Assembly (NCBI GenBank): GCA_947500445.1
Contig: CANMSB010000012.1
Span: forward strand, 1 to 64,000
Length of the DNA stretch: 64,000 nucleotides
Reading direction: 5' to 3'
From: an uncultured Flavobacteriaceae bacterium
Lineage (GTDB): Bacteria; Bacteroidota; Bacteroidia; Flavobacteriales; Flavobacteriaceae
Made by a program: the position numbers and the translations under genes. The notes below the pieces were generated by a model that did no database searches, was not told the origin of the DNA, and was given only the letters and a program-made list of their open reading frames with translations. Positions 2,014 through 40,487 of this stretch are shown in pieces. Numbering within the stretch: the first letter of the stretch is position 1; each line of letters begins with the position of its first letter.

Positions 2014-2021
2014 ACAATAAT

Positions 2022-2720: not shown

Positions 2721-3439
2721 GCTTCTTTTGCCTTGATCAGGTCTTCCGGGGTATCAATTTCTATTCCGGTGACGTGGGTTTCCACCATTTTTATCTTTTT
2801 TCCATACTCCAAGTAGCGGATGGCCTCTATTTTTTCCGTGGCCTCTAGCGGCAGCATCGGAAGCCGCTGGAAATCCATCAACGCCCTCTTTCGAAAAGCG
2901 TAAATCCCCTTGTGTTTGTAATAGGTGGCCAAGGTATTTTTTTCCCTTGGATACGGTATAGGCGATCTTGAAAAATAAAGGGCAAAATTCCGTTGGTCGA
3001 CAATTACCTTCACCGTATTCGGGTTATTGATCTCCTCCTCATCCGTAATCTTCACCATGAGGGAGGCCAAATCGATTTCCTTTTGAACGTCCTCTTCAAA
3101 AACCTCGAGTACCCCTTTTAGACTTTCCTTATCGGTAAAGGGCTCGTCGCCCTGCACGTTCACAATAATATCAACATCCATACCACTTACGGCTTCCGCA
3201 ATACGGTCGCTACCACAGTCATGCTCCTTAAGGCTCATTATGGCCTTGCCCCCGGCATTTTGGATCACTTCAAAAATGGGCTCACTATCGGTCACCACAT
3301 ATACAGCATCAAAAAGCCCGGTTTGTAATGCGGCTTCGTAGGTGCGCAGTATAACCGGTTTTCCGTGCAGGTCCTGCATCAGTTTTGCCGGAAACCTGGA
3401 CGCCGCATAACGGGCGGGTATCATTGCTATTGTTTTCAA
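2711..3439 (-). CDS. kdsB: 3-deoxy-manno-octulosonate cytidylyltransferase (CMP-Kdo synthetase)
   Basis: 242 residues, normal length for KdsB. It activates Kdo with CTP to give CMP-Kdo for inner-core LPS. The N-terminal nucleotide-binding motif [14 protein letters not shown] and the following [11 protein letters not shown] segment are diagnostic, and NVQGDEPF (metal and CTP binding) is present in the middle. It starts 4 bases after the DUF4126 gene and overlaps the HAD gene. Its pairing with a kdnB-like oxidase suggests that it activates 8-amino-Kdo in this organism, as known for Shewanella-type kdn operons; that part is inference. Confidence 0.93.
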
Positions 3440-8896: not shown

Positions 8897-10231
8897 TTAA
8901 AGTTTTTGTAATTGTATTTTATAATACCCTTTTTCAATTTTTAACAGCATGGTATTATCGTCTTTCCAAGAATATTTTTCCATATAATCCATCGGGATAA
9001 GACTTGAAAAATTCAACAAATATTCTGGTGCAAGGTTTTTATTCATTTTTTCCAAAAAATGAACATTTGATTGCCCACTGTAGTACCCATTTAAACGAAA
9101 AGTGTTTTCCGGAGATGATCGGTAATAGTTTGGATTTCCTATTCGGTTAATATCATCTTTGCCATTTTTTAAGTTTATTAAATAATCTGAGGAATGGCCA
9201 CATTCCAATAACAAATAATGGTATTGGGGAAAGTATTCGGTAATTCCGCATTCGTTTAGATCTGAACGAACTTCCTTCTGGTTATCCGTCAATATTTTTG
9301 TTACCGTATAATAACCATCTTCATCAAATTCGCCTACTAATTGATCTTTTAAAACACCTTCTATTTTTTTGATATCCGTAATTTTTTCTACGGACGGGTA
9401 ACTATCTTTTTTGTTTTCTTCCCTATCAAAATCTTCTTTTGAAATTTGATCAAGAATCACTTTATAGTCGTTAGTGATTATCTCGGTGTGTCTTTTTGCA
9501 AAAGCGCCAAAAACATATCCTAATTGCTGCAAAGAATCTTTCTTCGCTATTTTTATCCAATAATCCCTTAAATATTTTCCGTTGTCCAATACTGATGTGG
9601 AATCTATTTTGGAATCGTTGGATAGGTAATTGAAAACGGTTGAATTGGGTACGGAAGCAACAACCTCACTGGTTATAGTCGGTTTGTTACGAACTCTAAT
9701 TCCAGATGGCGCTTTTATGATAACTTGATTTTTGATAGGTTTAAAACCGGTATCAGTAATTGAATATTGTTTTACGGTACGCTCAGGGTCGTTGTATATA
9801 TTATGAATATTCAAAGTCATAATATTATAGTTTATCCACGAGTTTACTTCATAAAAACCTTCTTCGTTGTAATACGCCGTTTCATACAGCCTATCTATTA
9901 CATTCAACGATTTATCTAAAAGTATGGCAAAATGAATATTCTCGGAAATCCAATATTTTGAAAAGAAAAGAACCATCAGGTTATTTATCGCATACTTACC
10001 AGTAATATAATATTCGCTATGCTCCAAGGGTTCCAGTTTTAATCTTTTTAAAATTTGTGTTTCGTGTTGTATTGAAAATCCTTGCTTTTTTTCAGCACCA
10101 TCGTAATAACTAAAAGGTGAATAATAGCTTTCATAAGATGGCGTGTCACTAATAATCTGTTCCAATGTTTTTTGCCCTAAAACAGATTGAAATTGAAACA
10201 GTGAGAGCAGTACTAATATAATTTTCATCAT
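8897..10231 (-). CDS. Secreted protein with bacterial SH3 (SH3b) domain
   Basis: 444 residues. A signal peptide (MMKIILVLLSLFQFQSVLGQ) is followed by an unrecognised N-terminal region to about 170. Then comes an SH3b-like module at about 173-245 (SGIRVRNKPTITSEVVASVP ... YWIKIA ... GYVFGAF), a form that usually binds peptidoglycan or mediates periplasmic contacts. The C-terminal 190 residues are unassigned. It is AT-richer than the surrounding core genes and followed only by a possible 64-codon frame. The first of two adjacent ATGs was used. A cell-envelope role is inferred from the signal peptide and SH3b module only. Confidence 0.7.
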   Translation of the reverse strand: MMKIILVLLSLFQFQSVLGQKTLEQIISDTPSYESYYSPFSYYDGAEKKQGFSIQHETQILKRLKLEPLEHSEYYITGKYAINNLMVLFFSKYWISENIHFAILLDKSLNVIDRLYETAYYNEEGFYEVNSWINYNIMTLNIHNIYNDPERTVKQYSITDTGFKPIKNQVIIKAPSGIRVRNKPTITSEVVASVPNSTVFNYLSNDSKIDSTSVLDNGKYLRDYWIKIAKKDSLQQLGYVFGAFAKRHTEIITNDYKVILDQISKEDFDREENKKDSYPSVEKITDIKKIEGVLKDQLVGEFDEDGYYTVTKILTDNQKEVRSDLNECGITEYFPQYHYLLLECGHSSDYLINLKNGKDDINRIGNPNYYRSSPENTFRLNGYYSGQSNVHFLEKMNKNLAPEYLLNFSSLIPMDYMEKYSWKDDNTMLLKIEKGYYKIQLQKL

Positions 10232-10810
10232 AAATAAATGGTTGTGTATTTTGAATACTTTTGAGGTTTTTTAGAACAACTGCCGACGATAGGTGTACCA
10301 TAAACGGCCCTTACTCAGGCAAATTGGTTTTAAGCCATTGGACTTTCCAAATTCAGTTGAAGTATTGATAAATGCCTTCTGATAATTTTCATTCATGTTC
10401 AATATTCAGTGCGTATGGTCAAGTACCGCTAGCGGTTCGGGATGACCAGTTGCGGAAATGTCCGCTAAAATGGTTCCTGCGCGTTATGAAGATAGTAATA
10501 ATTATTAACGATTTTCCATGTGGGAAATAGGCACAGTTCGTTATCGTGAAGACTTCAATAACGGCAACAATTAATTCATTATCCCGTTACATCAGGCCGC
10601 TGTTAATATAGCTTTTTGTTCAGAAACTTTATGAAGATCCTTCTTACGATTTAGCTGAATTCCCCATCGTGTAGTATTTTAAAGTCAGCAGTGGTTCTTT
10701 CAAATGTAATGTCGCGTTAATTGGGCTATTGTGAACACTGTAGCCCAGGCAGTCCATTGACAAGACAGTCCTGTTGGGGTGGGTATCATCTGTTTATTCT
10801 GACATGTTTT
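10232..10810. other. 579-bp gap with no convincing gene
   Basis: No supported gene. The minus strand holds a 41-codon frame (10271-10396, starting MNENYQKAF, ending YRRQLF) and short peptide-like fragments around 10670-10730, which together suggest decayed coding sequence such as an old insertion element. A TAGCGG/CCGCTA hairpin lies near 10430-10475. No tRNA or terminator was recognised. Confidence 0.4.
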
Positions 10811-11812: not shown

Positions 11813-11980
11813 TAAACACAGCAATTGAGAGTACCATTTACTTTACCTAAACACCCTTATTTGACCTATAGCCCTTAACCTGTTCATAATAACAGAACCC
11901 GGTTTTCAGGAGCCCCATAAGAATGAAACAACTGTCTTCCTGCTATAGGACCACCAAAAGGAAACAAAACCATCGTATAA

Positions 11981-12300
11981 AAAAAGCAGGCCATAAGCCG
12001 GATTCTGTTGCGACCGATATACGGTCGCCCCTTATCATTTATCTCGACCTTTGATTGCCCAAAGGCTCTAACCGCCTACCCTTCGATTCGGACGTGCCGC
12101 CCTCAAACACCGATTTACATGACGTTTCACCGCATAGAGTTTACCTGGTTTCACTACAGCCGAACTGTACTTGCTTTCTGTTGCACTGGTCCTTTTCCGA
12201 ACGCTGTTCGGAACGACGGGCGTTACCCGCTATGCTGCACTATGGTGTCCGGACTTTCCTCCCCGGCCGAACGGCCGGAGCGATAAGGTGGCCTGCTACG
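11981..12300 (-). ncRNA. rnpB: RNase P RNA component
   Basis: About 320 nt on the minus strand. The universally conserved 5' block GGAGGAAAGTCCGGACACC is the complement of 12244-12262, and the 3' block ACAGAATCCGGCTTATGGCC is the complement of 11989-12008. The ends pair as P1 (GCAGGCC near 12293 with GGCCTGC at 11986-11992), followed by a T7 tract that can serve as terminator. Bacterial type A layout with the expected P3/P4 and the GGGTAACGCCC and GTGAAACC segments inside. It is the catalytic RNA that matures tRNA 5' ends with protein RnpA. Ends are accurate to a few bases. Confidence 0.93.
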
Positions 12301-17766: not shown

Positions 17767-19884
17767 TTGGAACCATTTATCGTATCAGCCCGCAAGTATC
17801 GGCCCCAAACGTTTAACGATGTTGTTGGGCAACAATCCATTACCAATACCCTGACCAATGCCATTGACAATAATCATTTGGCACAGGCATTGCTCTTTTG
17901 CGGTCCCCGGGGTGTCGGTAAAACGACCTGTGCCCGTATTTTGGCCAAAAAAATCAATTCGGACGGTACCGAAAGGCCCGATGAGGATTTTGCCTTTAAT
18001 GTGTTCGAACTCGATGCCGCATCCAATAACTCGGTGGACGATATCCGCAGTCTGATCGATCAGGTACGCATTCCGCCCCAAGTGGGCAAATACAAGGTGT
18101 ACATTATCGATGAAGTACACATGCTCTCCCAATCCGCGTTCAACGCCTTTCTAAAGACCTTGGAAGAGCCCCCCAAACATGCGGTGTTCATATTGGCGAC
18201 CACCGAAAAGCACAAAATTATCCCTACCATCCTATCCCGATGTCAAATTTTCGATTTTAAGAGAATTACGGTAAAGGATGCGGCCAATTATCTAAAGTAT
18301 ATTGCCGAGAACCAAGGAATAAGCGCCGAAGAGGACGCGCTCCATATTATTGCCCAAAAAGCGGACGGTGCCATGCGGGACGCACTTTCTATTTTTGACC
18401 GGGTGGTCAGTTTTTCGGGCAAACAACTCACCCGAAAAGCGGTGACCGAAAATTTGAACGTACTGGATTACGACACCTATTTTTCGGCAACGGACTTTTT
18501 ACTGCAAAACGATATCCCTTCAGTGCTTTTACTGTTCAACAAAACGCTTTCGCTGGGGTTTGATGGGCACCATTTTATTAGTGGACTGGCTTCGCACTTT
18601 CGGGACCTTATGGTCTGCCAACACCCGGGCACCATTTCCCTTTTGGAAGTAGGCGACGTGGCGCAGCAAAAGTACATGCAACAGGCCGGCCAGGTCAATC
18701 AATCCTTTTTATTAAAAGCGCTGGATTTGGCGAATACCTGCGACCTACAGTACAAATCCAGTAAAAATCAACGGTTGCTGGTAGAACTGACCTTGATGAA
18801 GTTGGCCTCCATTACCTATAACGGAGAAAAAAAAAATCCTGAGTCGATAGCCCTGGCCAACAAAACGGTCGATTTTATCGCTCCGGCCTCTTTTTTCAAG
18901 GACAGAAGCCCTAAAACGGCAGTCGCTACCGAAATCACCCAAGTACCGCAACCCGACACCGACACGAAAAGTGTTGTTCACCAAGAACAGTTGCCCGCCC
19001 CAGAAACCGAGATGGCAACAGCTAGCGCGGAGAACGTTGCCGCTCCTTTAAAAGCACCCAAACCGGATACGGTTCCACCTCCAGAAGCCGTTTCCGAAAC
19101 GGTACAACCGGTAAGTGCCGAAATAACGCCCCAAACGTTCGGCCCTGTAACACCCACCATAGCGTTAGCCTCACCATCGCTTCAAGAGGAAACCCCGACT
19201 TGGAACAAAACGGATAACCAGCCCGTACCGACCGAAGAGATCGCGCCGGCAACACTGGAAGAAAACGGTAACGTACAACTTGATACGGCGCCCACCATGG
19301 AAGCTCCTGTTCCCGTAGCCGAGAACACAACAGATCCAGTAACAACAAACAGTGCCGCTACGGCCGAAGTAGAAGTATTACCCACGGAAAAAAAAGAAGC
19401 TATTCCCATAGCTATAGCTCCTAAAAGGGTTTCCGGGCTTTCCCTTTCCAGCTTAAAGGCGAAAAAAGAGCATGAGCGTACAAAAAAGGAACAGGTAGTA
19501 GATGAAAAAGACCTGCCAAAAGACCCGTTTACAGAGGAAACGATGCGCGGCCACTGGAACGACTTTGTACAGCAGATAGATAAAAAAGGGCAAAAAATTC
19601 TAGCATCGAACTTGGCTACCGATGTCCCCAAACTGTTGGAGAACCACACGCTTTGGATCGAGTTGCCCAACGGGACCATGAAAAAGGAAGTGGAGCGGGA
19701 GCAATACGACCTTATGGTATACTTGCGAAGCAAACTCAACAACCACTTTATCACCTTAAAGATTACGGTAAACGAGGAAACAGCCAAGAAATTTGCGTTT
19801 ACGCCAGAAGAAAAATATGAAAAGCTTCGGGCCAAAAACCCCGCTATAGACCTATTGCGACAAGAGTTCGATTTGGACCTATGA
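17767..19884 (+). CDS. dnaX: DNA polymerase III subunit gamma/tau
   Basis: 705 residues from a TTG start, giving MEPFIVSARKYRPQTF, the standard N-terminus. AAA+ clamp-loader ATPase: Walker A GPRGVGKTT at 46-54, DEVH at 115-118, sensor-1 LATTEKHKI and the SRC motif at 157-159. The cysteine zinc module between Walker A and B, present in E. coli DnaX, is missing. A long Pro/Ala/Thr/Glu-rich linker (about 390-570) joins a C-terminal polymerase-binding domain. A run of ten A at 18827-18836, after domain III, is followed in the -1 frame by TGA at 18840-18842, so slippage would give a product of about 358 residues equivalent to gamma. It converges with, and overlaps by six bases, the gene at 19879. 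Confidence 0.93.
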   Translation: MEPFIVSARKYRPQTFNDVVGQQSITNTLTNAIDNNHLAQALLFCGPRGVGKTTCARILAKKINSDGTERPDEDFAFNVFELDAASNNSVDDIRSLIDQVRIPPQVGKYKVYIIDEVHMLSQSAFNAFLKTLEEPPKHAVFILATTEKHKIIPTILSRCQIFDFKRITVKDAANYLKYIAENQGISAEEDALHIIAQKADGAMRDALSIFDRVVSFSGKQLTRKAVTENLNVLDYDTYFSATDFLLQNDIPSVLLLFNKTLSLGFDGHHFISGLASHFRDLMVCQHPGTISLLEVGDVAQQKYMQQAGQVNQSFLLKALDLANTCDLQYKSSKNQRLLVELTLMKLASITYNGEKKNPESIALANKTVDFIAPASFFKDRSPKTAVATEITQVPQPDTDTKSVVHQEQLPAPETEMATASAENVAAPLKAPKPDTVPPPEAVSETVQPVSAEITPQTFGPVTPTIALASPSLQEETPTWNKTDNQPVPTEEIAPATLEENGNVQLDTAPTMEAPVPVAENTTDPVTTNSAATAEVEVLPTEKKEAIPIAIAPKRVSGLSLSSLKAKKEHERTKKEQVVDEKDLPKDPFTEETMRGHWNDFVQQIDKKGQKILASNLATDVPKLLENHTLWIELPNGTMKKEVEREQYDLMVYLRSKLNNHFITLKITVNEETAKKFAFTPEEKYEKLRAKNPAIDLLRQEFDLDL
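18827..18836 (+). promoter_or_regulatory. A10 slippery tract in dnaX (possible tau/gamma switch)
   Basis: GGA-GAA-AAA-AAA-AAT-CCT-GAG is the zero frame. A -1 ribosomal shift, or one extra A added by RNA polymerase, reads AAA-TCC-TGA and stops at 18840-18842. The site lies just after the clamp-loader collar domain, where gamma ends in organisms with programmed slippage. Confidence 0.55.
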
Positions 19885-20229
19885 TTTTGAAAATTGTTTT
19901 CGGGCAGCAAACAATAACAGTATTAGCGCGATAATCAACAATCCAAAAGCTTCCCTGCCTTCCTCTACATTTTTGATGTTTCCTTCCCCGATCTCGAATC
20001 CTTCGAACTGCTCGGGATAGCAATATAAAAAACCGCCCAAAGCCACTACTCCCGTAATCCACAAAAGCGCTGACGGCACCTTGTCTACGGCAAAACCCAA
20101 TGCGAGTATCCCCGCCAATGCCCATACAATGATCCAAATGAGGGAATCGGGATCGTTAAATTGCAGTCCCGCGGCAACAAAAAATAACAGCGCAAAAATA
20201 AAGCCGATAGCCTTGAACAAGATTTTCAT
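19879..20229 (-). CDS. TMEM220-family membrane protein
   Basis: 116 residues. Four hydrophobic segments; the AGLQFNDPDSLIWIIVW motif near residues 20-36 is the signature of the transmembrane-220 family. Function is unknown. Its ATG overlaps the eboF stop by four bases (ATGA, 20226-20229), so it is translationally coupled to the ebo operon and forms its last gene. Its stop codon overlaps the dnaX stop from the opposite strand. Confidence 0.75.
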   Translation of the reverse strand: MKILFKAIGFIFALLFFVAAGLQFNDPDSLIWIIVWALAGILALGFAVDKVPSALLWITGVVALGGFLYCYPEQFEGFEIGEGNIKNVEEGREAFGLLIIALILLLFAARKQFSKS

Positions 20230-21611
20230 GTAGTAGCGGTTTCGGTTAATTGTTGTTCTAAAATACGAAATACTTCCGTGGGCGCTATGGTATCGCCAGT
20301 ATTCCCAAGATTACCATCGGAAATGAGTATGGGGTAGTCCGCCTTGTTCTTTGGCTCCGTTCCATGGGACCCTTTGATCAATGTAGCATCCAAAGGAATG
20401 ATATCCATAACCGTTCTAAAACCCAATTTTTTACGAATGAGCTTCCCAATCACCTTTGGCATCACCAAAGGATCGGAGGGATCCGTCATCATTTCTACGG
20501 GATCATAACCCGGTTTTTTATGAATGTCGACCATACGGGCATAATCCGGGGCCTTTGCGTCATCGAGCCAAAAATAATAGGTAAACCAGGCGTTCTCCTT
20601 GGCCAATACCACCAGATCTCCACAACGGTCGTGCAACAGCCCAGCTTCCCGTAGTTCGGCATCGTCCCAAACGGCCGCTACACCCGGTACATTTTTAAGC
20701 AACTGCTTTACCTGTTCCTTTACCGTAACATCGTTTATATAAATATGGGCAATTTGATGGTCCGCCACTGCAAACGCTTTGCTGGCACCGGCATCCAAAA
20801 GCTCCAAACCCCGCTCCCGTCGGATGCCCAACAACCCTTCTTTTCTTAAAACGCGATTCAAATGAACGGGGGTGTCCACATTTACGATTCCGTATTCGCT
20901 CAATAAAACGATGTTGGCGTCCTTTTTCCGGTAATGTTCGATAAGCTGTTGTACAACAGCATCTATTTTCCGTAAATCTTTTGAAATGATGCTAAAATCC
21001 AACCCGTGCCGCTGCAGGTTATAGTCCAGGTGCGGCAAATAGACCAGGGTAAGGGTGGGGTCGTGCAATTCGTCCGTTCGTATGGTCGCATCCGCAATCC
21101 ACTGACTACTACGGATACTGGTCTTGGGGCCCCAGAAATTAAAAAGGGGAAAGGTTCCCAGTTCTTTCTGAAGGGTATCCCTCAACTCGGCGGGATGGGA
21201 ATACACATCCGGAATTTTCCGCCCATCGGCCAAATAGTTGGGGCGTGGGGTTACATTATAGTCCGTGGTGGCATACATATTGTACCACCAAAACAGGTTG
21301 GCACAGGTAAAATCGGGGTCGACACGCTTCATTTTTTCCCAGATTTTTTCGCGCTGGATCAATTTGTTCGATTGCCGCCAAAACTTGACTTCGCACTCGT
21401 CCTTAAAATACCAGCCATTGCCGACAATACCATGCTCGGTCGGGTACTTGCCCGTCAGGTAGGTTGCTTGTGCCGAACAAGTGACCGCAGGAAACACGGG
21501 TTTAATGAAGGTAGCGGTGCCCTTTTTCAAAAAGGCGGCGATATGCGGGGTATGTTCCCCTATTAACCGTTTCGTCAACCCGACTACATTGATTACGACC
21601 GTTTTTCTCAT
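20226..21611 (-). CDS. eboF: EboF-type alkaline phosphatase / nucleotide pyrophosphatase family protein
   Basis: 461 residues. Alkaline phosphatase superfamily (phosphodiesterase / nucleotide pyrophosphatase branch). The N-terminal KTVVINVVGLT and the block PVFPAVTCSAQATYLTGKYP (metal and nucleophile region, probably T44) with EHGIVGNGWY are present; GSHGTEPKNKADYPILI near the C-terminus supplies the metal-binding HGT. There is no signal peptide, so it is cytoplasmic. Sixth gene of a collinear eboABCDEF operon. It would hydrolyse a phosphoester intermediate of the unknown ebo pathway; the substrate is not known. Confidence 0.85.
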   Translation of the reverse strand: MRKTVVINVVGLTKRLIGEHTPHIAAFLKKGTATFIKPVFPAVTCSAQATYLTGKYPTEHGIVGNGWYFKDECEVKFWRQSNKLIQREKIWEKMKRVDPDFTCANLFWWYNMYATTDYNVTPRPNYLADGRKIPDVYSHPAELRDTLQKELGTFPLFNFWGPKTSIRSSQWIADATIRTDELHDPTLTLVYLPHLDYNLQRHGLDFSIISKDLRKIDAVVQQLIEHYRKKDANIVLLSEYGIVNVDTPVHLNRVLRKEGLLGIRRERGLELLDAGASKAFAVADHQIAHIYINDVTVKEQVKQLLKNVPGVAAVWDDAELREAGLLHDRCGDLVVLAKENAWFTYYFWLDDAKAPDYARMVDIHKKPGYDPVEMMTDPSDPLVMPKVIGKLIRKKLGFRTVMDIIPLDATLIKGSHGTEPKNKADYPILISDGNLGNTGDTIAPTEVFRILEQQLTETATT

Positions 21612-21617
21612 GGCGTG

Positions 21618-22808
21618 CTATAGTCTTTCTTTTAACCAATCGATTTCTCGTACTATGGATGCCGATAGTTCCCGTTTTAACGCTTTCGGCAGTACTTCCC
21701 AGGTATAGGTCTCAACCTCCAAATGTTCGGAAACGGGATGCTCCCTTACATACGCAAGTACCTTTAAAATATGATCTTGAGTGGAATGCAACGCATCAAA
21801 ACGTTCCAAAAAAATAGGCACATGAAAATGGGCCCGCAATTCGGTAAAAGCCTTTTTTTCTTGAAGTACCATCGGCAGGTCGTTATAAGTCGTTACCGTA
21901 TCCCCTACTTTTTCGGTTACCTGATGCAGATAGGTGGGTTCGTCAAATCGTGCCAACTCCTCCCAAATGGCGTCCTCATTTTGTGTGTCGTGCAAGATTT
22001 TTAAAGCGGCACTTACCTGTATTTTACCAATGGCGATGCCTTGATCTTTCATCTTTTGAAAGGTGTACTCAGGTTCTTCAAAGGCCAAGGAAAAATGACA
22101 GATATCGTAACAGAGCGTGATGTATCTTTTGATCAGTTTATGCGCGGCATCCTCGGGAATGCCCCGTTCGGTTTTGAGTACCTCAGCGGCGATCGGTAAA
22201 AGATAGGTATTATAAAAATGCACCACTTCCCCACTGTTCTCCAAAAGCCCATCGGGTTCCGGTTCGATATCCAAATGCAGGTACTGTTGTTTTTGCGTTT
22301 CAATGTCCAGCAGTTGCAGTACAATTTGCGCCAGATGCCCGGCCCCGCTCTCAAAAGCCCTTTCGGTAGCTTCGGTAGTTGAAAACCAGTGCTTGTAGCT
22401 TATCGGGGAGGTAGAAATACCTCCGGACATTCCGCTAGGAAGCAATACCGAAAGCTGTTCAAAAAGCCGTTTTGTGTAGACAAGGCGCTCCGGGGTTGTC
22501 CAATCCGGGGCGTGTACGGTATCCTTTACCCGTTCACCATGAAAATTACCGTATGGAAACCCGTTCATGGTAAATACGTACAGTCCATTGGCATCCAGCC
22601 ATTTTTTAAACTGTGCCATACGGGTTTCGGTAAGTTCCTCGCTTGCTTTGTTCGATAACCGCAATCCCAACCCAAAAGGATGATCCGGCGATACCTGTTC
22701 CTTTATTTTTGGGGCAAACTCCTTTAAACTGTTGAAGGTAGTTTCCCAATCGGTACCCGGGTGGATATTGGTGCAGTAACTGACGTGAAAGGTATCGTTT
22801 ATTTTCAT
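21618..22808 (-). CDS. eboE: EboE, xylose-isomerase-like TIM barrel enzyme
   Basis: 396 residues from the ATG at 22806-22808, which overlaps the eboD stop (ATGA). A longer in-frame reading upstream lies inside eboD and is rejected. TIM-barrel family with metal-ligand segments LHLDIEPEPDG and LCYDICHFSLAFE. The N-terminus FHVSYCTNIHPGTDWETT is typical of EboE (annotated as metabolite traffic protein or sugar isomerase-like). The reaction is unknown. Six bases separate it from eboF. Confidence 0.88.
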   Translation of the reverse strand: MKINDTFHVSYCTNIHPGTDWETTFNSLKEFAPKIKEQVSPDHPFGLGLRLSNKASEELTETRMAQFKKWLDANGLYVFTMNGFPYGNFHGERVKDTVHAPDWTTPERLVYTKRLFEQLSVLLPSGMSGGISTSPISYKHWFSTTEATERAFESGAGHLAQIVLQLLDIETQKQQYLHLDIEPEPDGLLENSGEVVHFYNTYLLPIAAEVLKTERGIPEDAAHKLIKRYITLCYDICHFSLAFEEPEYTFQKMKDQGIAIGKIQVSAALKILHDTQNEDAIWEELARFDEPTYLHQVTEKVGDTVTTYNDLPMVLQEKKAFTELRAHFHVPIFLERFDALHSTQDHILKVLAYVREHPVSEHLEVETYTWEVLPKALKRELSASIVREIDWLKERL

Positions 22809-23959
22809 GGGTACCTGCCGTTCAAAAAGGTGACCGCCCGTTCCATTTGGACCATATCGATACGATCGACATCGTGCTTTATTCCTATCCCTGTAATCAA
22901 CGTAATACAAAGTGTACCGCCCAAATGCTCCCGAAACTCCTGAATGCCCTTTAAAAGGGTTTGTATTTCCGCAGCATCCGAGACGGGGATAGTCAAATCG
23001 AAACCGATGCGCTCCAACACGCCGAGTATGCGCTCCAACAGCGGTTCGGTCAATAAACCGGTCAAATGGGCATAGGTAACGTCCAAAGCGATGCCCTTTG
23101 CCACTGCTTCCCCATGCCGCAACCGGTATTGGGTCATTTGCTCCATTTTGTGTGCGGCCCAATGCCCAAAATCCAATGGCCGGGACGAACCGCTCTCAAA
23201 AGGATCTCCTCCTTGCGCAATATGTTGCATGTGCATTTCCGCGCACCTATGGATCAGCAACTGCATGGTTTCCATATTGCGTTCCCTTAAGGTATCGGCC
23301 TTCTCTTCTATGAACTCAAAAAAACTACGGTCTTTGATCAAGGCTACCTTCACCGCCTCCGAAATACCGGCGATCCAATCGCGTTGTTCCAAGGTCGTTA
23401 AAAAATGACTATCGTTTATAATGGCGTACGGCAGGGCGAAAGTGCCCAAAAAATTCTTTTTTTGAAAACTGTTGATGCTGTTCTTCACCCCTACGGCCGC
23501 GTCGTTTTGTGCGAGTACCGTTGTCGGTATGCGTATGCACTTCACTCCCCTATGGGCGATGGTCGCGGCATACCCCACCATATCCACCAATGCCCCGCCA
23601 CCGATACAGACCACAAAGGAATGGCGGTCGATATGGGCATCGTTGATGGCCGTTAGCACTGCATTGAGATGGGCGGTGTCATTTTTACTCGTCTCCCCTC
23701 CCGGTAAGGTCAGCACCTCGGTAAGCAACAGTGTCTTTTCAAAAAAACTGCAATACTCCCGAATAGAAACGATAAGGTCCGGATGGCGTGCCACCACCGC
23801 TTCGTCGATAACGAACAACAAGCGGTTTTGGGTGTCTTTTTTATAACGGGCCAGCACCTCATGGAACAACGGGTTGTCCTTGGAAAACAACTGTTCGGTG
23901 AAGTACAGCGTATATCGGTATTCTACGGCAAACGACTGTGCTATTGGTTTCAACTGCAT
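22805..23959 (-). CDS. eboD: EboD, 3-dehydroquinate-synthase-like sugar phosphate cyclase
   Basis: 384 residues. NAD-dependent sugar phosphate cyclase: LPGGETSKND (NAD site), CIGGGALVDMVGYAA, RIPTTVLAQNDAAVGVKNSIN, GISEAVKVALI and RLRHGEAVAKGI, the last two carrying the zinc ligands of dehydroquinate synthase homologues. It differs from housekeeping AroB in spacing and sits in the ebo operon, so it most likely cyclises a sugar phosphate for the ebo product. Starts 9 bases after eboC. Confidence 0.9.
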   Translation of the reverse strand: MQLKPIAQSFAVEYRYTLYFTEQLFSKDNPLFHEVLARYKKDTQNRLLFVIDEAVVARHPDLIVSIREYCSFFEKTLLLTEVLTLPGGETSKNDTAHLNAVLTAINDAHIDRHSFVVCIGGGALVDMVGYAATIAHRGVKCIRIPTTVLAQNDAAVGVKNSINSFQKKNFLGTFALPYAIINDSHFLTTLEQRDWIAGISEAVKVALIKDRSFFEFIEEKADTLRERNMETMQLLIHRCAEMHMQHIAQGGDPFESGSSRPLDFGHWAAHKMEQMTQYRLRHGEAVAKGIALDVTYAHLTGLLTEPLLERILGVLERIGFDLTIPVSDAAEIQTLLKGIQEFREHLGGTLCITLITGIGIKHDVDRIDMVQMERAVTFLNGRYP

Positions 23960-23968
23960 ACTGCAAAC

Positions 23969-24862
23969 TTAAGTGACCGCAAAAAGTTTAGACAAGCCTA
24001 CGGACAGGGGCCATAAAAGTAAAATAAGCAATCCATACCACCAAGGGGCAAACCCCACGGCAAAAGCGGCATCGAGTACAATTAACGACAATACGCCCGA
24101 AATGACCGCTTTTTTTATGTTTGTGGGCGTATTTTCCTGATAGGCCGCAACCAAAGGCCTATAGACCAACACGGCTAGCATAACCAAAAAGGGGACCATC
24201 GGATACACTTTTCCAGCGGTCAAAAATATACCTCCCACAACGCCCAAAACAACGATCCCGTATAACGTTCCGGCCCATAGTAAATGCTTTTTATTGTTCC
24301 CATGTACTTCGCCCCTACTGATGAGGGTAATGGCAAAGATGTAGATCAGGGGAATACCCGCCAACCAATACAGATCGGGAACGTTTCCCAATAGGGACAT
24401 TCCCAACGCCAGATTTAGGCTTCTGCAAAAGCCCATATTCAAAGGACCCAAAAAAGCGTGTTTTTTTGCCACCCCGTCATATAACACTATGGAAAATGCC
24501 AGTACTAAAGCGATAAAGCCACTGATACTATGTACCAAAAATGCACAGCCGATTCCCAAAATGAGCAATATGGCCCCAAAGCTACTTGCCGAACGCAGCG
24601 AAACCAATCCACTGGGTATCGGTCTTTCCGGCCGCTCCACGGCGTCCAACCGATGGTCGAAAACGTCGTTGAGGACTACGCCACCAGCATATAAAAGTAC
24701 GGAAGCCAACACCAGGCAACTTCCGGGAAACAGCAAACGGGAGGGTAACGTATCCGCTGCAAACATTCCGGCCAACGCCATTCCCGCAAAAATATCGGCC
24801 GCGGCCGTAGGCAGGTTTGCCGGTCGCGCCAAGCGAAAATATCCTTTTAGGACTGCATTCAT
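23969..24862 (-). CDS. eboC: EboC, UbiA-family prenyltransferase
   Basis: 297 residues, about eight transmembrane helices. The first Asp-rich motif, with NDVFDHRLDAVERPERPIPS, matches the UbiA consensus NDxxDxxxDxxxRPxRPIPSG at about 65-85. The second Asp-rich motif is less clear. UbiA enzymes attach prenyl chains to aromatic or polar acceptors in the membrane. In the ebo operon it may make a lipid-linked intermediate. Its ATG directly abuts the eboB stop. Confidence 0.9.
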   Translation of the reverse strand: MNAVLKGYFRLARPANLPTAAADIFAGMALAGMFAADTLPSRLLFPGSCLVLASVLLYAGGVVLNDVFDHRLDAVERPERPIPSGLVSLRSASSFGAILLILGIGCAFLVHSISGFIALVLAFSIVLYDGVAKKHAFLGPLNMGFCRSLNLALGMSLLGNVPDLYWLAGIPLIYIFAITLISRGEVHGNNKKHLLWAGTLYGIVVLGVVGGIFLTAGKVYPMVPFLVMLAVLVYRPLVAAYQENTPTNIKKAVISGVLSLIVLDAAFAVGFAPWWYGLLILLLWPLSVGLSKLFAVT

Positions 24863-25771
24863 TTAAACGATCTTGTCGGAACCGGTTTTGGGTTTTTGCC
24901 CCCGCAGTACGCTATTGTCATTGAACAGCTGCGTTTGGTCCACACCTTCGGGACGCAACCAATCGGATGCTTTCATTTTTCCGTTTTTACCAAAAATATC
25001 CAAAGCGTTTTGGTAGCAGGTCTTGACCACATCTTCCTTGGAAATTCCTTTTTGGAGCATGAGTCCGGCCGTTTTTGGCACTGCTAGCGGATCGCTTACG
25101 CCCCAATCGGCGGAACTATCCACAATAACGTTATCGCTTCCATAGGTTCGCACTACTTCTACCATGCGTTCGTTGCCCATTTTAGTCTTGGGATAAATGG
25201 TAAAGGCGGCGATAAACCCGCGGTCCAATACGGCCTGCACGGTTTCTTCATTATTATGATCGATGACCACCATTCCCGGGTCGATGCCATGTTCCAAACA
25301 TACTTCCATACTCCGTATGGTACCGGCCTTCTTATCGCGGTGCGGCGTATGTACTTGTACTACCATGTTCAGTTCCTTGGCCAACTCCAGCTGCATTCGA
25401 AAATACTTATCCTCCGCCGGAGTCTGATCGTCATATCCGATTTCCCCGATGGCCACTACATTTTCCTTGTGTACATATAACGGCAGTAACTCGATCACTT
25501 GCTCCGCCAAGGCCTCGTTGTTCGCCTCTTTTGAGTTTAGCCCGATCGTGCAATAATGTTTGATACCAAACTGACTGGCCCTAAACGGTTCCCAACCGAC
25601 CAAACTGCTGAAATAATCCTGAAAAGAGCCTACCTGTGTTCTCGGTTGGCCCAACCAGAACGAAGGTTCAATAATTGCGACCACCCCGGCCCTGGCCATG
25701 GCCTCATAGTCGTCGGTCGTGCGCGACGTCATGTGTACGTGCGGATCTATAAATCGTAAGTTCGTATTCAT
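24863..25771 (-). CDS. eboB: EboB, TatD-like metal-dependent hydrolase
   Basis: 302 residues. Amidohydrolase superfamily barrel: the N-terminal HxH metal site FIDPHVHMTSRTTDD, VQVHTPHRDK, VVIDHNNEET and the late Asp in VIVDSSADWG. Resembles TatD nucleases, but EboB proteins form their own group tied to the ebo cluster. Start overlaps the eboA stop (ATGA, 25768-25771). Confidence 0.88.
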   Translation of the reverse strand: MNTNLRFIDPHVHMTSRTTDDYEAMARAGVVAIIEPSFWLGQPRTQVGSFQDYFSSLVGWEPFRASQFGIKHYCTIGLNSKEANNEALAEQVIELLPLYVHKENVVAIGEIGYDDQTPAEDKYFRMQLELAKELNMVVQVHTPHRDKKAGTIRSMEVCLEHGIDPGMVVIDHNNEETVQAVLDRGFIAAFTIYPKTKMGNERMVEVVRTYGSDNVIVDSSADWGVSDPLAVPKTAGLMLQKGISKEDVVKTCYQNALDIFGKNGKMKASDWLRPEGVDQTQLFNDNSVLRGQKPKTGSDKIV

Positions 25772-26631
25772 TCGTAAACGTTTAGTGTATCCCAGCTAAC
25801 AGCATCGTTTGCTACTTGCTGTTGTATTTTGGGGTATTGTTGTAGTAATGTTACAGCGGCTTTTTCCGAAGATTCCACACAACAGAGCGCTCCCGCCAAT
25901 TGTTCCTTGGCATCGGGGCTGTTGAGCAGTCTTTTCATATCTTCCAGCAAGCGGTCGTCCAGAAAGTTACCGACCGGTTTCCAAAACAAGGGATCGACTT
26001 TTCGTGATGCCGCCCAACGCTCGTGCGCATAATCGGAAATAATACGCGCCAGTTCACCATTTGCCCGTTCCTTGACGTCCATTATGGCCGAAAGGTCCCG
26101 TTCCATAAACGCCGCCTTCAAATACATTTGATTCCATTCCTGGTCGTTAAAATATTGGGAAGGATAGGGATTGTGAGCACTAATAGCATCAAAAACCGGT
26201 ACAATATTGGTCCGTAACGCTTCAACTGCAGCCGACCTGTAGGTTTCCGGTTCGGGCAACAATATCAAGAACTTTAAAAATGTGATGAGTTCGCCGGTAT
26301 CGGCCACCTGAATGATCTGCGCTATTTTAGGGGCAAAAAAAGGAGTGTTCCCTTCCAAAACACCAATCAAAAGATACATTCGTGCCAGTTGTAAAGGTGT
26401 TGCCCCCTGTGCTTTCAAATAGGTACCTAGAGGGTTTCCCGGAAAATCGATTTCGGCCTCCTTATCGGAAACTACCTTGCTTGCCAAAAGGCTGTACCCT
26501 AAATAAAGGTCCTTTGTAGCGGCATGGTCCACTACCGATGCTATACGTTGTTGAAGCCATTCGAACGTATCGGGCTTCAAGCTACGCGTCAACAGGGTAG
26601 AAAGATTTTGGGAAATGTCGGTGAATTGCAT
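25768..26631 (-). CDS. eboA: EboA-domain protein
   Basis: 287 residues, soluble, mainly helical by appearance. It contains the EboA pattern with YLGYSLLASKV near 45 and a C-terminal helical-repeat region (LLNSPDAKEQLAGALCCVESS). No enzymatic motif. First gene of the minus-strand eboABCDEF-TMEM220 operon, in which every junction is an overlap or within nine bases. In cyanobacteria, ebo genes are needed to deliver the scytonemin precursor to the periplasm, but no scytonemin genes are seen here. Confidence 0.85.
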   Translation of the reverse strand: MQFTDISQNLSTLLTRSLKPDTFEWLQQRIASVVDHAATKDLYLGYSLLASKVVSDKEAEIDFPGNPLGTYLKAQGATPLQLARMYLLIGVLEGNTPFFAPKIAQIIQVADTGELITFLKFLILLPEPETYRSAAVEALRTNIVPVFDAISAHNPYPSQYFNDQEWNQMYLKAAFMERDLSAIMDVKERANGELARIISDYAHERWAASRKVDPLFWKPVGNFLDDRLLEDMKRLLNSPDAKEQLAGALCCVESSEKAAVTLLQQYPKIQQQVANDAVSWDTLNVYE

Positions 26632-26677: not shown

Positions 26678-26685
26678 CAAAGCTA
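26678..26685 (-). promoter_or_regulatory. ebo operon -7 box
   Basis: Minus strand TAGCTTTG fits TAnnTTTG, 46 bases before the eboA ATG, in the spacer shared with the divergent miaE gene. No matching -33 TTG at 18-20 bases. Confidence 0.4.
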
Positions 26686-26776: not shown

Positions 26777-27358
26777 ATGCTAGGCTTAAAATTACCGACC
26801 GACCCCAGATGGGTAGATTTAGTGGAAAAAAACATCGACGAGATTTTAACGGACCATGCCTATTGCGAACAAAAAGCGGCCAGTACGGCAATTTCACTCA
26901 TTGTCAATTTTCCCGAATATCCTGAACTGGTAACGGAAATGGTAGCACTTTCAAGGGAAGAGATGGGCCATTTTAAAATGGTGCACGACCGCATTTTGGC
27001 CCGGGGTACCGTTTTGGGCCGTTATAGAAAGGATGAGTACGTTATCGCGCTTATGAAGTTTTTCCCAAAAGGGGGGAGCCGTACCGATCAATTGGTGCAC
27101 CGGCTTTTATATGCCGCCCTGATAGAAGCGCGCAGCTGTGAACGGTTTCGCCTGCTATCGGAACAATTGGCCGATAAGGACCTCGCCGAATTCTATCATA
27201 AACTTATGGTCAGCGAGGCGGGACATTATACCATGTTCCTAAAATTTGCAAGACAGTATGGCGACCGCGAAACGGTCGACCAAAAATGGGACGATTTGCT
27301 ACGCTACGAAGCGGATATCATGAAAGACTTGGGCAAAAAAGAGACCATTCACGGATAA
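26777..27358 (+). CDS. miaE: tRNA-(ms[2]io[6]A)-hydroxylase
   Basis: 193 residues. Ferritin-like diiron protein with ligand motifs REEMGHF (ExxH), EARSCERF and VSEAGHY (ExxH), in the MiaE family arrangement. The family hydroxylates the isopentenyl group of modified A37 in tRNA. It is divergent from the ebo operon and convergent with ppk1. In Bacteroidota the annotation is homology-based and the exact modified base has rarely been tested. Confidence 0.88.
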   Translation: MLGLKLPTDPRWVDLVEKNIDEILTDHAYCEQKAASTAISLIVNFPEYPELVTEMVALSREEMGHFKMVHDRILARGTVLGRYRKDEYVIALMKFFPKGGSRTDQLVHRLLYAALIEARSCERFRLLSEQLADKDLAEFYHKLMVSEAGHYTMFLKFARQYGDRETVDQKWDDLLRYEADIMKDLGKKETIHG

Positions 27359-36596: not shown

Positions 36597-38234
36597 CTAC
36601 CCGTTGATCAAACCTTCTTCCCTATAAATTTTGATAAAGCGGTTGTCTAAAGCGGTAGAATCCTTATACTTTTTTCGAAGTGCCCGCAGTTTGGATTTTA
36701 ACTTTTTTACCGTTTCGGAATATGCGGGATTGTCATAAACATTGTTCATTTCATGGGAATCCTTTTTTAAATCATAAAGTTCCCACTCGTCCGTATCATA
36801 ATAAAAGTGTACAAGCTTATAATTTTGGGTGATAACGGCATAGTGCCGCATAACCATATGTTCCGCAGGATACTCGTAATAGTGGTAGTAAACGGCCTCG
36901 CGATTCCATTGTTCTTTTTTTCCGGTAAGAAGTGGAATAAGACTCTCACCCTGCATGTCATCTGCAGCGGTAATACCGGCCGCCTCGAGAAAGGTTTGGG
37001 CGAAATCCAGGTTTTGTACCATTTCGTTTTCCGTAGTATTCGGGGTGATGACATTGGGCCACCGTATCAACAAAGGTATCTTGAACGATTCGTTGTAAAC
37101 AAAACGCTTATCGAACCAACCATGTTCGCCCAGAAAAAAACCTTGATCGGAGGTGTAGACTACCATTGTATTTTCTGCCAATCCGTTCTCATCTAGATAA
37201 TCGAGTACGCGCCCGACATTATCATCTACCGAAGAAATACACCCTAGATAATCCTGCATATATCTTTGGTACTTCCAAATCATTTTTTCCTTAGCTGTCA
37301 TCTTTGGCCAATTCGTCTTAAAATCAGCAGCTATGGCATCCAATATCGGATCATATAAGCTGCGTTGCTCATCACTTACCCTGTTGTCAAAGGTATCTTC
37401 CCATGCCGTTCCCAATTTATCGATTTTGGGTATCACCTCCTCCATTTCCTTTAGTACCGATGGCCTTACTTTGGAATCATAGCTATAGTACATATGTTGG
37501 AGCAAGTTCATTTTGGCCGTTTTCGCAGCGGTACCACGATTTTCGTAACTATCAAAAAGAGTCTCCGGTACTGGAAATGTTTTTTTGGAAAATTCCTTAA
37601 ACTTATCCGCACGAGGCCACCAGGGCCTATGAGGGGCTTTATGGAGGTACATCATCATAAAAGGTTTGGAACTATCCCTCTTTTTGGTAAGCCAATCCAG
37701 TGTCAGGTCCGTAATGATATCGGTGGCATACCCTTTGATATTTACAGTGTCTCCGTTGGTGTCAATAAAATCTGGATCTAGGTATCGGCCCTGTCCCGGC
37801 AGGATCATAAACGTGCCTACTCCCTTTGGCTTGTTCCCAAAATGTAGTTTACCGAACATGGCTGTTTGGTAGCCCGCCTTTTGAAAAAGTTGTGGAAAAG
37901 TGACCTGGGTGGTATCGAAGGGCATAAAATTATCGATCTTACCGTTGAGATGGGTGTGTTTTCCGGTCAATATGACCGCACGCGAAGGAGCGCATATTGA
38001 ATTGGTTACGCTCGCATTGGAAAACAGCATTCCCTCTTTGGCCAAACGATCAATGTTGGGTGTCGGTATTAAACCGTCATTATAAGCACTGATCGCCTGG
38101 TAAGCGTGATCGTCGGACATAATAAACAGGATGTTGGGCCGCTTTACGTTTGCCTTTTTTGAATTTTGGACGCACTCCTCACATGATAAGAGCGCTACAG
38201 ATAAAAATGTCAGTAGCAATATTTCTTTTCTCAT
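36597..38234 (-). CDS. S1-family sulfatase (lipoprotein)
   Basis: 545 residues. Lipoprotein signal peptide with lipobox ALLSC (Cys18). Formylglycine motif CAPSRAVILTG with C81 as the residue converted to formylglycine; metal ligands D41-D42 in MSDDHAYQ and the later TSDQGFFLGEHGWFDK. Hydrolyses sulfate esters on polysaccharides. The modifying formylglycine-generating or anSME enzyme is not in the window. Belongs to the PUL-like cluster on the minus strand; sulfation site and substrate cannot be read directly. Confidence 0.92.
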   Translation of the reverse strand: MRKEILLLTFLSVALLSCEECVQNSKKANVKRPNILFIMSDDHAYQAISAYNDGLIPTPNIDRLAKEGMLFSNASVTNSICAPSRAVILTGKHTHLNGKIDNFMPFDTTQVTFPQLFQKAGYQTAMFGKLHFGNKPKGVGTFMILPGQGRYLDPDFIDTNGDTVNIKGYATDIITDLTLDWLTKKRDSSKPFMMMYLHKAPHRPWWPRADKFKEFSKKTFPVPETLFDSYENRGTAAKTAKMNLLQHMYYSYDSKVRPSVLKEMEEVIPKIDKLGTAWEDTFDNRVSDEQRSLYDPILDAIAADFKTNWPKMTAKEKMIWKYQRYMQDYLGCISSVDDNVGRVLDYLDENGLAENTMVVYTSDQGFFLGEHGWFDKRFVYNESFKIPLLIRWPNVITPNTTENEMVQNLDFAQTFLEAAGITAADDMQGESLIPLLTGKKEQWNREAVYYHYYEYPAEHMVMRHYAVITQNYKLVHFYYDTDEWELYDLKKDSHEMNNVYDNPAYSETVKKLKSKLRALRKKYKDSTALDNRFIKIYREEGLING

Positions 38235-38461
38235 TACAAATTATCTTACCTAATCCTTGAAAATCCCAACCTGGTATATCGTTTCTTTCATTAAATCACT
38301 TGCTGCCTGATCGAAGGCTCCACCAGTAAAGACTATCGATACAAATTTTATGTACAATGACCGTGTCCGTAAAATATCATTCAATATTCAAGCTGTTATT
38401 TGCGTTTGGTTTTGTGTCATTCCCATATCGTTTCACCCAGTGCGTATCAATTAAAAATAAC

Positions 38462-40372
38462 CTAATTTTTAGTTGGTTTAAAATCGTCGGTTCGAAAAGG
38501 AACTGCGGGGAGTCCTGCAGCATTATATAAATTAACTATGGGGTTTCTTGCCCAGGCGTACCGAACATATTTTGGCTTCGTAACTTGAGTGCTCGATAGA
38601 TAAATTTGAGCGTTTTGAATTGTAGCTACGGCTTTATGAAATTCTCTATCTTCCCCTGCGATAACAAAACTCTGTGGTGCTTTACCATCCTTGGTATATA
38701 GCCTTTCCGCATGGTGAAAAGTAAGCAAAACAGTATCGTCCTTAATTGTCATTTCATGGAAACGAGGCCCGTTCGCCACCACATCTTTCCTATACAGCTG
38801 CTCCAGAGCAAGTAACGCAAGCCGTTCACCAACAGTTTTTTTATCCTTTGGGTGTATATCGTATGGTTCTCCAATATCGATGGCAACTGCCATACCTGTA
38901 TTTGGGAGCGTTAAGGCCATATCTTGTGCTTCACGCAAAAAGGCCCAATCATTTTTCGTTTCCGCCAGTTGTGTAGGAACGCCAAAATTCGCTAACTGCA
39001 CGTAGAGGAAAGGAAAATATCCCTGTTTAAATCGAATACGCCAGTCATTGATCAATTCGGGAAAAAGTGCGCGATAACGTTCGCCTTCATTTCCCTCGGT
39101 TTCACCCTGATACCAAATTACCCCTGTTAGCTGACTATTAAGAATCGGATGAATCATGCCGTTATATAAAGCACTTGGACTGTGTTGAACCGAATATGTT
39201 TTTTCTGGAATGGCTTCCAACTTGTCCGAATACTTCCAGTCCTTCCCCAAGTCAAATAGTAGCGATCCTTCGGTACATTTTAAAACCGGGGAGTCTTCGT
39301 TTATCAAAAAAGGGGATCGCCACGGATGTCCCAAACGTAAGGTGATTAAGTTCTTTCCCTTTTTTAGTGCCTGCGGTGTTAACTTCCTCTGGAACACCGC
39401 TAATTTTGACTTACCGATATGTTTGCCGTTTATATAGGCATCAATGAACATACCAGGCTTGCCCAAATACAAGACCAAGGAATCGTTGGGCACCTTATCC
39501 AAGTATAACTTTTTGCGAAACCAATACACCCTATTATTCTCGCCCGACCAATTTAATAGCTCGGTAGTTTCCCAACGCTCATCATCATATCCCCACTTGG
39601 CAACTCCTTCTTTAAGACCTGAATACGCATTTTGTCCAATATCAAAATTACGTGCGATCACTTTTGAGTTGATCGCCGAAAATTCCGCCAAGGTAAATTT
39701 GCCCGACCGTACCTCCGGAATTTCTATTGCCGGCCTAGCGGGCAATCCCTTTAAAACTTCCTTGCTCATCCAAGCTTCGACACTACTGCCGCCCCAGGCG
39801 GAAACTACTATTCCTATGGGGACACCTACCGCTTTATGCAAACGTTCGGCAAAATAATAAGCTACGGCAGAAAATTGGCTAACGGTCTGTGGAGAACAGA
39901 CTTTCCATTTTCCTTTCAAAGTTGTTTTTAAAGGAACATCCGACGGGTTCGCATCCAGCGTAATCATTCTTATTTTTTCGTAATTCGCATTTTTGATTTC
40001 GCGCTCCCAATTAAGTACCCCAGTCCCCATTCTGTAGGCCATATTTGATTGTCCGGAAGCCAACCAAACATCTCCAAATTGGATATCACTATAACTAATG
40101 GATTCTTCTTTTGACTGGATTTCCATATCAAAAGGTCCCCCTGCGGAATGTCCGGTAAGCCTTACCTTCCATTCGCCCTTATCATTGGACACCGTGCCGA
40201 CTATTTTTCCTTTCAGTATACACCGCACCACTGTATTCGGAAGTGCCTTCCCTTCAATGGTAAAGGCCCTGTCTCTTTGAATAACCATATGATTCCCTAT
40301 CAGGCCGTTGACTTCAAGATGGGATTCTGGAGCCTGAAAAAAAAGCGACAAAAGTAGTATTACAATTTTCAT
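38462..40372 (-). CDS. Sialate O-acetylesterase-like (SASA/SGNH) esterase
   Basis: 636 residues from the ATG at 40372 (MKIVILLLSLFFQAPES, Sec signal). SGNH hydrolase: block I WLASGQSNMAYRMG with the catalytic Ser, IWYQGETEGNE (block III), and the C-terminal DIHPKDKKTVGERLA with the Asp/His pair. A beta-sandwich insertion (about 270-380) is common in this family. Removes O-acetyl groups from glycans; in PULs it usually acts on acetylated pectin or xylan rather than sialic acid. Confidence 0.88.
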   Translation of the reverse strand: MKIVILLLSLFFQAPESHLEVNGLIGNHMVIQRDRAFTIEGKALPNTVVRCILKGKIVGTVSNDKGEWKVRLTGHSAGGPFDMEIQSKEESISYSDIQFGDVWLASGQSNMAYRMGTGVLNWEREIKNANYEKIRMITLDANPSDVPLKTTLKGKWKVCSPQTVSQFSAVAYYFAERLHKAVGVPIGIVVSAWGGSSVEAWMSKEVLKGLPARPAIEIPEVRSGKFTLAEFSAINSKVIARNFDIGQNAYSGLKEGVAKWGYDDERWETTELLNWSGENNRVYWFRKKLYLDKVPNDSLVLYLGKPGMFIDAYINGKHIGKSKLAVFQRKLTPQALKKGKNLITLRLGHPWRSPFLINEDSPVLKCTEGSLLFDLGKDWKYSDKLEAIPEKTYSVQHSPSALYNGMIHPILNSQLTGVIWYQGETEGNEGERYRALFPELINDWRIRFKQGYFPFLYVQLANFGVPTQLAETKNDWAFLREAQDMALTLPNTGMAVAIDIGEPYDIHPKDKKTVGERLALLALEQLYRKDVVANGPRFHEMTIKDDTVLLTFHHAERLYTKDGKAPQSFVIAGEDREFHKAVATIQNAQIYLSSTQVTKPKYVRYAWARNPIVNLYNAAGLPAVPFRTDDFKPTKN

Positions 40373-40487
40373 AGTATTTCTACACAGTTTTAACTTTCGA
40401 CAAAAACTAAATTGGTCCGATCGACCCAAATATATAAATCGTTTCAGTAGCGCAAAGACATAGCAAACAAGTCCTTTTAAAACGCTT

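Follow-up and report, generated by a model that had tools for sequence, protein, structure and literature searches.

A gene of the TMEM220 family, whose name comes from a human protein that is itself uncharacterised, directly follows a complete eboABCDEF operon in an uncultured Flavobacteriaceae bacterium (GenBank assembly GCA_947500445.1, contig CANMSB010000012.1, positions 1 to 64,000 of the forward strand; this whole stretch of 64,000 nucleotides (nt) is hereafter called the window). Across Bacteroidota, genes of this family often accompany ebo, either linked to it at one of several positions or elsewhere in the same genome. The association between TMEM220 and ebo is very likely a real one, and TMEM220 probably acts as a working partner of the ebo pathway in this phylum, being a partner of the operon rather than a strict part of it. 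An initial annotation, made from the window's sequence alone, had described a collinear ebo operon coupled to a TMEM220 gene; this observation is confirmed, while the interpretation attached to it is supported in part. As both families are poorly understood, their genome-wide link offers a genetic handle and a common functional lead for the two.

Co-occurrence of TMEM220 and ebo genes

The presence of ebo was scored by EboE in three samples that overlap in some genomes, namely the phylum, the window's family and the order of Runella (that of genome G246); the Fisher p values given here ignore kinship. Among the 395 genomes of the phylum sample, EboE was found in 31 and TMEM220 in 50 (49 above cut-off), the latter occurring in 24 of the 31 ebo-positive versus 26 of the 364 ebo-negative genomes (p = 1.2e-18), and the two genes lie at most 6 kb apart in 7 of the 24 genomes that share them. 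The family sample (159 genomes from 158 genera; EboE in 24, TMEM220 in 33, 32 of these above cut-off) gave 23/24 versus 10/135 (p = 6.6e-19), with TMEM220 and ebo within 6 kb on one contig in 21 of the 23 shared genomes. As to the order sample (118 genomes; EboE in 39, TMEM220 in 37, of which 36 above cut-off), TMEM220 was present in 31/39 ebo-positive versus 6/79 ebo-negative genomes (p = 3e-15); linkage within 6 kb was seen only in G626 and G664 and not in the other 29 of the 31 shared genomes, among which fragmented assemblies may hide a few cases. TMEM220 hits below cut-off were counted as present in these figures (G143 and G499 in the 26/364 and the 10/135, G613 in the 6/79).

Kinship was addressed in the order sample with an rpoB tree that covers 100 of its 118 genomes, on which independent pairs were compared and G613 was scored as lacking TMEM220. 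The genomes left out comprise 13 small ones, all devoid of either gene, and those with no rpoB hit (G657, G660, G665, G666 and G672). On average, TMEM220 moves with ebo in 6.6 of 9 pairs and in the opposite direction in none (median p 0.016, range 0.0156-0.0625). The reversed test, ebo given TMEM220, yields 6.4 of 11 pairs in the same direction and none opposite (median p 0.031), and without the two linked genomes the count is 5.6 of 8, again with none opposite (median p 0.031, range 0.0312-0.125). As a control, TMEM220 paired with cyanophycin synthetase gives 1.6 pairs in the same and 1.9 in the opposite direction.

Organization of the locus and positions of TMEM220

In the window, seven closely packed minus-strand genes run from 26631 down to 19879, with eboA to eboF collinear between 26631 and 20226 and TMEM220 thereafter, between two plus-strand flanking genes (lengths in amino acids, aa):

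25768-26631, minus strand: eboA, 287 aa, all-helical protein
24863-25771, minus strand: eboB, 302 aa, metal-dependent hydrolase fold near TatD
23969-24862, minus strand: eboC, 297 aa, UbiA-family prenyltransferase
22805-23959, minus strand: eboD, 384 aa, sugar phosphate cyclase
21618-22808, minus strand: eboE, 396 aa, EboE family, a TIM barrel according to the model name
20226-21611, minus strand: eboF, 461 aa, alkaline-phosphatase-superfamily member with an altered metal site
19879-20229, minus strand: TMEM220-family gene, 116 aa, four helices
17665-19884, plus strand: dnaX, clamp loader of gamma/tau type (PF13177 122.4 bits, DNAX_ATPase_lid 44.6 bits)
26777-27358, plus strand: miaE (PF06175 152.2 bits)

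The tight junctions that had been described hold, since eboA/eboB and eboD/eboE overlap by 4 nt, eboB abuts eboC, gaps of 9 and 6 nt separate eboC from eboD and eboE from eboF, and the ATGA joining eboF to TMEM220 is a third 4-nt overlap. The start of eboE is the ATG at 22808, which overlaps the eboD stop; a longer eboE reading frame from 23162 was rejected as an open-frame artefact. At the other end of TMEM220, its 3' end overlaps the 3' end of the convergent dnaX by 6 nt. Both dnaX, whose true start may be later, and the divergent miaE are kept at this site in relatives.

For comparison, the 80 ebo loci nearest to a Runella EboE were selected from more than 590 candidate stretches in a species collection of named genomes; 73 of these 80 have the order ABCDEF on one strand. 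TMEM220 was found in 31 of the 80, in all but one no more than 700 bp away from the ebo genes, and at different positions. In Pedobacter, Mucilaginibacter, Daejeonella, Sphingobacterium, Ferruginibacter, Flagellimonas and Salegentibacter it precedes eboA on the same strand, whereas in some Chitinophaga it precedes eboA but is divergent; elsewhere it follows eboF either on the same strand, as in Maribacter, or convergent, as in a Cyclobacteriaceae metagenome-assembled genome (MAG). Two different TMEM220 copies each lie in the ebo regions of a Segetibacter MAG (L242) and a Salegentibacter (L276). The initial annotation had considered that the adjacency might be accidental if it proved unique to this genome; since linkage recurs across Bacteroidota at several positions, it is not unique.

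The other 49 named loci showed no TMEM220 within the DNA that was retrieved around ebo. For 31 of them the search was widened to the whole genome, the remaining 18 lying outside this search, and TMEM220 was present in 31/31. Seven of these, all Chitinophaga (L224, L231, L237, L244, L253, L269 and L271), carry it on the ebo contig at a distance of 7.8-11.2 kb, slightly outside the retrieved DNA, and at nearly equal distances (7.78-7.84 kb) in five of the seven; this loose linkage, if anything, favours a partnership. In the other 24, TMEM220 lies further off or on another contig according to match coordinates that were not checked singly. A 32nd whole genome, that of Adhaeribacter, has TMEM220 2.3 kb from eboF.

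Recurring neighbours were also looked for around unlinked TMEM220 genes, among which no single partner emerged. A glucose/sorbosone dehydrogenase-like protein, recognised by eye, is found within three genes of unlinked TMEM220 in L132, L133, L137, L139, L144 and L148, and sugar isomerase-like proteins recur near others.

Points against a partnership and alternative explanations

Several observations weigh against a partnership between TMEM220 and ebo. TMEM220 is absent from 7/31, 1/24 and 8/39 ebo-positive genomes of the phylum, family and order samples, and conversely occurs without ebo in 26/364, 10/135 and 6/79 genomes. No TMEM220 was detected (profile, E<=1) within 8 kb on either side of EboE in five plasmid-borne ebo loci, from Deinococcus, Ketogulonicigenium, Azospirillum, Gemmatirosa and the bacteroidote Aureibacter, four of which are thus outside Bacteroidota. 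Given its absence from these loci and from some ebo-positive genomes, TMEM220 is not required for ebo everywhere. The rpoB tests rest on few independent pairs, with p varying with the pairing, and two genomes outside that tree, G657 with ebo only and G660 with TMEM220 only, oppose the association. Structural matches assign TMEM220 no activity, as neither its structure (E<=0.001) nor its profile (chains, E<=1) matched anything in the PDB. Finally, dnaX, TMEM220 and miaE stand together without ebo between them in five genomes of the window's family (G001, G009, G191, G458 and G544; G001 was excluded from the TMEM220 tree), G006 has miaE-TMEM220 where its contig ends, and in G004 TMEM220 stays at the dnaX-miaE site while the ebo operon is elsewhere.

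These last arrangements raise the possibility that TMEM220 is a resident of the dnaX-miaE site, its contact with eboF merely reflecting where the ebo block landed or was lost. On a tree of the neighbouring proteins (ppk, dnaX and miaE), the rows with an ebo-less site are scattered among ebo-positive ones; the tree has several weak branches, only 7 of 17 inner branches being well supported, with G006 placed outside its genus and three rows covering less than half of the columns. Because of this scatter, the six-gene ebo block probably came or went more than once at this site, the direction being beyond the tree's power. As the gene persists at the site in relatives devoid of ebo, to describe TMEM220 as an extension of the operon oversimplifies the case. 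However, TMEM220 is linked to the opposite end of the operon in G011, G457 and G469, as in Pedobacter, Mucilaginibacter and some Chitinophaga, and it accompanies ebo also where the two are unlinked. Mere residence at the site is an unlikely explanation of the contact with eboF in this lineage; accidental adjacency, against which both the recurrent linkage and the co-occurrence without linkage speak, is retained as a rival for the window's site. In G029 (L098, about 9055-10254), a lone eboE with a changed NGFPYG.FH motif is found between dnaX and miaE, with neither the other ebo genes nor TMEM220.

It could also be supposed that ebo and TMEM220 co-occur since both suit large-genomed, free-living aerobes, without any common pathway. 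Genomes with ebo are indeed larger (median 5.45 vs 4.2 Mb), yet the contrast persists when only tree genomes that reach 4 Mb are compared, with TMEM220 in 24/31 ebo-positive versus 0/39 ebo-negative genomes. Neither genome size (2.5 pairs in the same direction as ebo, 0.2 opposite) nor cyanophycin synthetase above cut-off (0.5 same, 0.2 opposite; a single control gene, which provides no distribution) tracks ebo on the rpoB tree as TMEM220 does, and physical linkage recurs. Genome size alone is rejected in part by the contrast at 4 Mb and the tree controls, and a shared lifestyle as the whole cause seems rather improbable. A working partnership between TMEM220 and the ebo pathway accounts better for these patterns.

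TMEM220 and the Ebo proteins

The TMEM220 protein matches PF15071 at 63.4 bits (gathering cut-off 27) and is predicted by AlphaFold2 as four helices (pLDDT 95.1, pTM 0.87). Seven residues (N25, D26, W32, E89, R92, E93 and G96) are invariant in 77 sequences, the others being 19-68% identical to that of the window. Since polar and charged residues are thereby fixed in a small membrane protein, this conservation suggests a catalytic site or one that binds a polar ligand. An identity of TMEM220 with the EboG of Deinococcus-type operons was rejected, as none of three small proteins encoded at the Deinococcus locus matched TMEM220 at E<=1 and the plasmid loci were likewise negative.

All six Ebo families are recognised by Pfam and NCBIfam profiles on one strand and in the order A to F, as had been proposed, although one subfamily profile falls short. 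EboA carries the domain NF035938 (149.8 bits, cut-off 50), while the subfamily NF035937 scores only 163.5 for a cut-off of 320. Its AlphaFold2 model is all helical (pLDDT 95.4), sixteen residues are invariant in 33 sequences, and no PDB entry matched its structure at E<=0.001 in a Foldseek search. EboB matches the TatD_DNase family PF01026 (70.3 bits, cut-off 27), remains below the cut-off of the TatD DNase subfamily TIGR00010 (42 vs 206) and has archaeal AF_1765 (3guw) as its closest PDB match by sequence; six residues, which we take to be metal ligands, are retained in 114/114 rows. Both EboC (NF035940, 367 bits, cut-off 250; UbiA, 64.6 bits, cut-off 34.2) and EboE (NF035939, 477.9 bits, cut-off 250) exceed their specific cut-offs, and the Asp-rich prenyl-diphosphate motif ND..D...D of EboC is retained in 109/109 rows.

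EboD matches DHQ_synthase (119.1 bits, cut-off 24.2) and DHQS_C (113.8 bits). It scores 229 with the aroB profile TIGR01357, below the cut-off of 305, whereas NF004852, also named 3-dehydroquinate synthase, gives 545.2 for a cut-off of 333, which counts against the verdict of TIGR01357. A separate AroB is encoded in the genome on contig C55 (TIGR01357 321.8). E201 and H282 are retained in 134/134 rows, and no less than 95% of 37 rows keep the FGHW..H stretch, all presumably metal binders. Rules for sugar-cyclase active sites were looked for, and none was usable for EboD.

Proposed pathway

It can be hypothesized from these families that EboD would cyclise a sugar phosphate to a cyclitol, that EboC, at the inner membrane, would prenylate this cyclitol or another ring compound, the acceptor being polar or aromatic, and that EboA, EboB, EboE and EboF would process or hold intermediates as soluble proteins. 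The product may, by analogy, aid the passage of small molecules to the periplasm, a role shown genetically in Nostoc only. Where present, TMEM220 might then act inside the membrane on the lipid-linked product by means of the invariant ND and E..RE residues, either as a late-step enzyme or as a translocation partner. Taken as a whole, from EboD to TMEM220, this mechanism is tentative and drawn from sequence.

A different product, a prenylated quinoline-type aromatic rather than a cyclitol lipid, is possible and somewhat doubtful. In the available text of Amiri Moghaddam 2022 (PMC9235831), EboC of Maribacter (UbiA-297), made in E. coli like those of Zobellia and Algoriphagus, farnesylates quinoline compounds, best 8-hydroxyquinoline-2-carboxylic acid, which the other two farnesylate as well. 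However, the acceptor panel consisted of 14 aromatics (PMC9235831), and the operon has its own sugar phosphate cyclase although AroB is encoded separately in the genome.

With regard to EboF, the match to PF01663 (Phosphodiest, 213.9 bits, cut-off 23) and the retained nucleophile threonine would be expected of an ordinary metal-dependent phosphodiesterase or phosphatase, and EboF resembles the NPP-type phosphodiesterases (2gsn and relatives) both in Pfam family and in the region around this threonine. It differs from them at the presumed metal-ligand positions. In an alignment with the NPP structure 2gsn, itself weak (15.6 bits for the first stretch, 6.4 for the second), V10 takes the place of the first Asp and Q200 that of one His, while E239 and Y240 replace the Asp-His pair; the roles of these residues in NPP, like the location of H416, are presumed ones. 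Among 138 EboF rows, which differ in their letters and some of which represent one protein from overlapping fetches, V10 is found in 137 (one gap), Q200 in 138, E239 in 137 (one G) and Y240 in 138, while T44, D196 and H416 are retained in 138/138, five plasmid copies included. The presumed positions of the canonical metal ligands of hydrolases of the NPP and alkaline phosphatase superfamily are thus occupied by other residues that are fixed, the plasmid copies again included, for which reason the naming of EboF as a phosphatase in the initial annotation is doubtful. EboF is probably not an ordinary two-metal phosphatase, and that it is one after all is quite improbable. Its site can be read as no longer holding the usual metal pair, which would be compatible with another metal arrangement or a non-hydrolytic role, and is a warning against drawing eboF as a phosphatase in pathways.

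Other features of the window

The window contains TAGCTTTG at 26678-26685 on the minus strand, just 5' of eboA, which we take to match the Bacteroidota -7 promoter element. The genes next to the operon are dnaX, miaE and ppk. A Pfam scan of 47 window proteins, 40 of them other than the seven operon genes, returned housekeeping, redox, regulatory and polysaccharide-related proteins among these 40, several having no match. In agreement with the initial annotation, neither a scytonemin-like cluster nor any other obvious biosynthetic one was recognised among the 47, the remaining genome not having been searched for scy genes. A row of an iron-type alcohol dehydrogenase, a HAD hydrolase and a cytidylyltransferase (886-3439, minus strand) resembles a sugar-nucleotide pathway. 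A sulfatase, a SASA-family esterase, regulators and a GH106 rhamnosidase at 36597-46107 suggest the breakdown of sulfated polysaccharide. Class A RNase P RNA is found at 11979-12299 on the minus strand.

Further observations were made on eboE in other records. EboE-like genes occur on 47 plasmid records, 28 of which are from Streptomyces, and in G236 (contig C1, 3566071-3567236) eboE appears as two overlapping matches, which may reflect a broken gene or a sequencing error.

Comparison with known systems

The human TMEM220 protein has been reported as Golgi-resident and as affecting glycoprotein secretion, by a mechanism left open in the available text (PMC6979480); its likeness to the window protein consists of the Pfam family PF15071, by name only. 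Among open papers in PubMed Central, none was found that gives an activity for TMEM220, nor was there a relevant report tying TMEM220 or PF15071 to ebo or to bacteria, subscription papers, preprints and supplements being outside this scope. It might be speculated, at long odds, that proteins of the TMEM220 family handle prenyl-linked small molecules, either as enzymes within the membrane or as partners in their translocation, with ebo in Bacteroidota as the clearest genetic context and the human Golgi protein doing a related job on a lipid-linked metabolite.

The ebo operon was named by Yurchenko 2016 (PMC5133447), whose available text describes the order ABCDEF as ancestral in Bacteroidetes, reports the operon from several bacterial phyla and some algal plastids and proposes an isoprenoid-cyclitol product. 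The window shares all six genes in the same order with this operon. Its main text, as distinct from the supplements, does not include TMEM220, and the available part lists EboF as a putative hydrolase with no mention of zinc, an active site or catalytic residues. In Nostoc punctiforme, deletions of eboA, B, C, E and F indicated that the scytonemin monomer needs these genes to reach the periplasm, and a prenylated (lipid) carrier was suggested (Klicki 2018, PMC6282210, available text). That cluster has the same Ebo families as the window, which differs in lacking recognised scytonemin genes; the main text of PMC6282210 is likewise without TMEM220. The prenyl-cyclitol pathway and the lipid carrier put forward in the initial annotation are therefore already in print, and neither these ideas nor an ebo operon in a flavobacterium is new, having been published in 2016-2018, with EboC assayed in 2022. 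The latter work (PMC9235831), the only assay of flavobacterial EboC found, deals with a member of the same EboC family that is encoded in a flavobacterial ebo cluster and bears a DXXDXXXD motif; its available text covers assays of aromatic acceptors, and eboF and TMEM220 are absent from the main text. The ebo copy in the window is complete and of a known kind, and relative to these papers the new element is its association with TMEM220.

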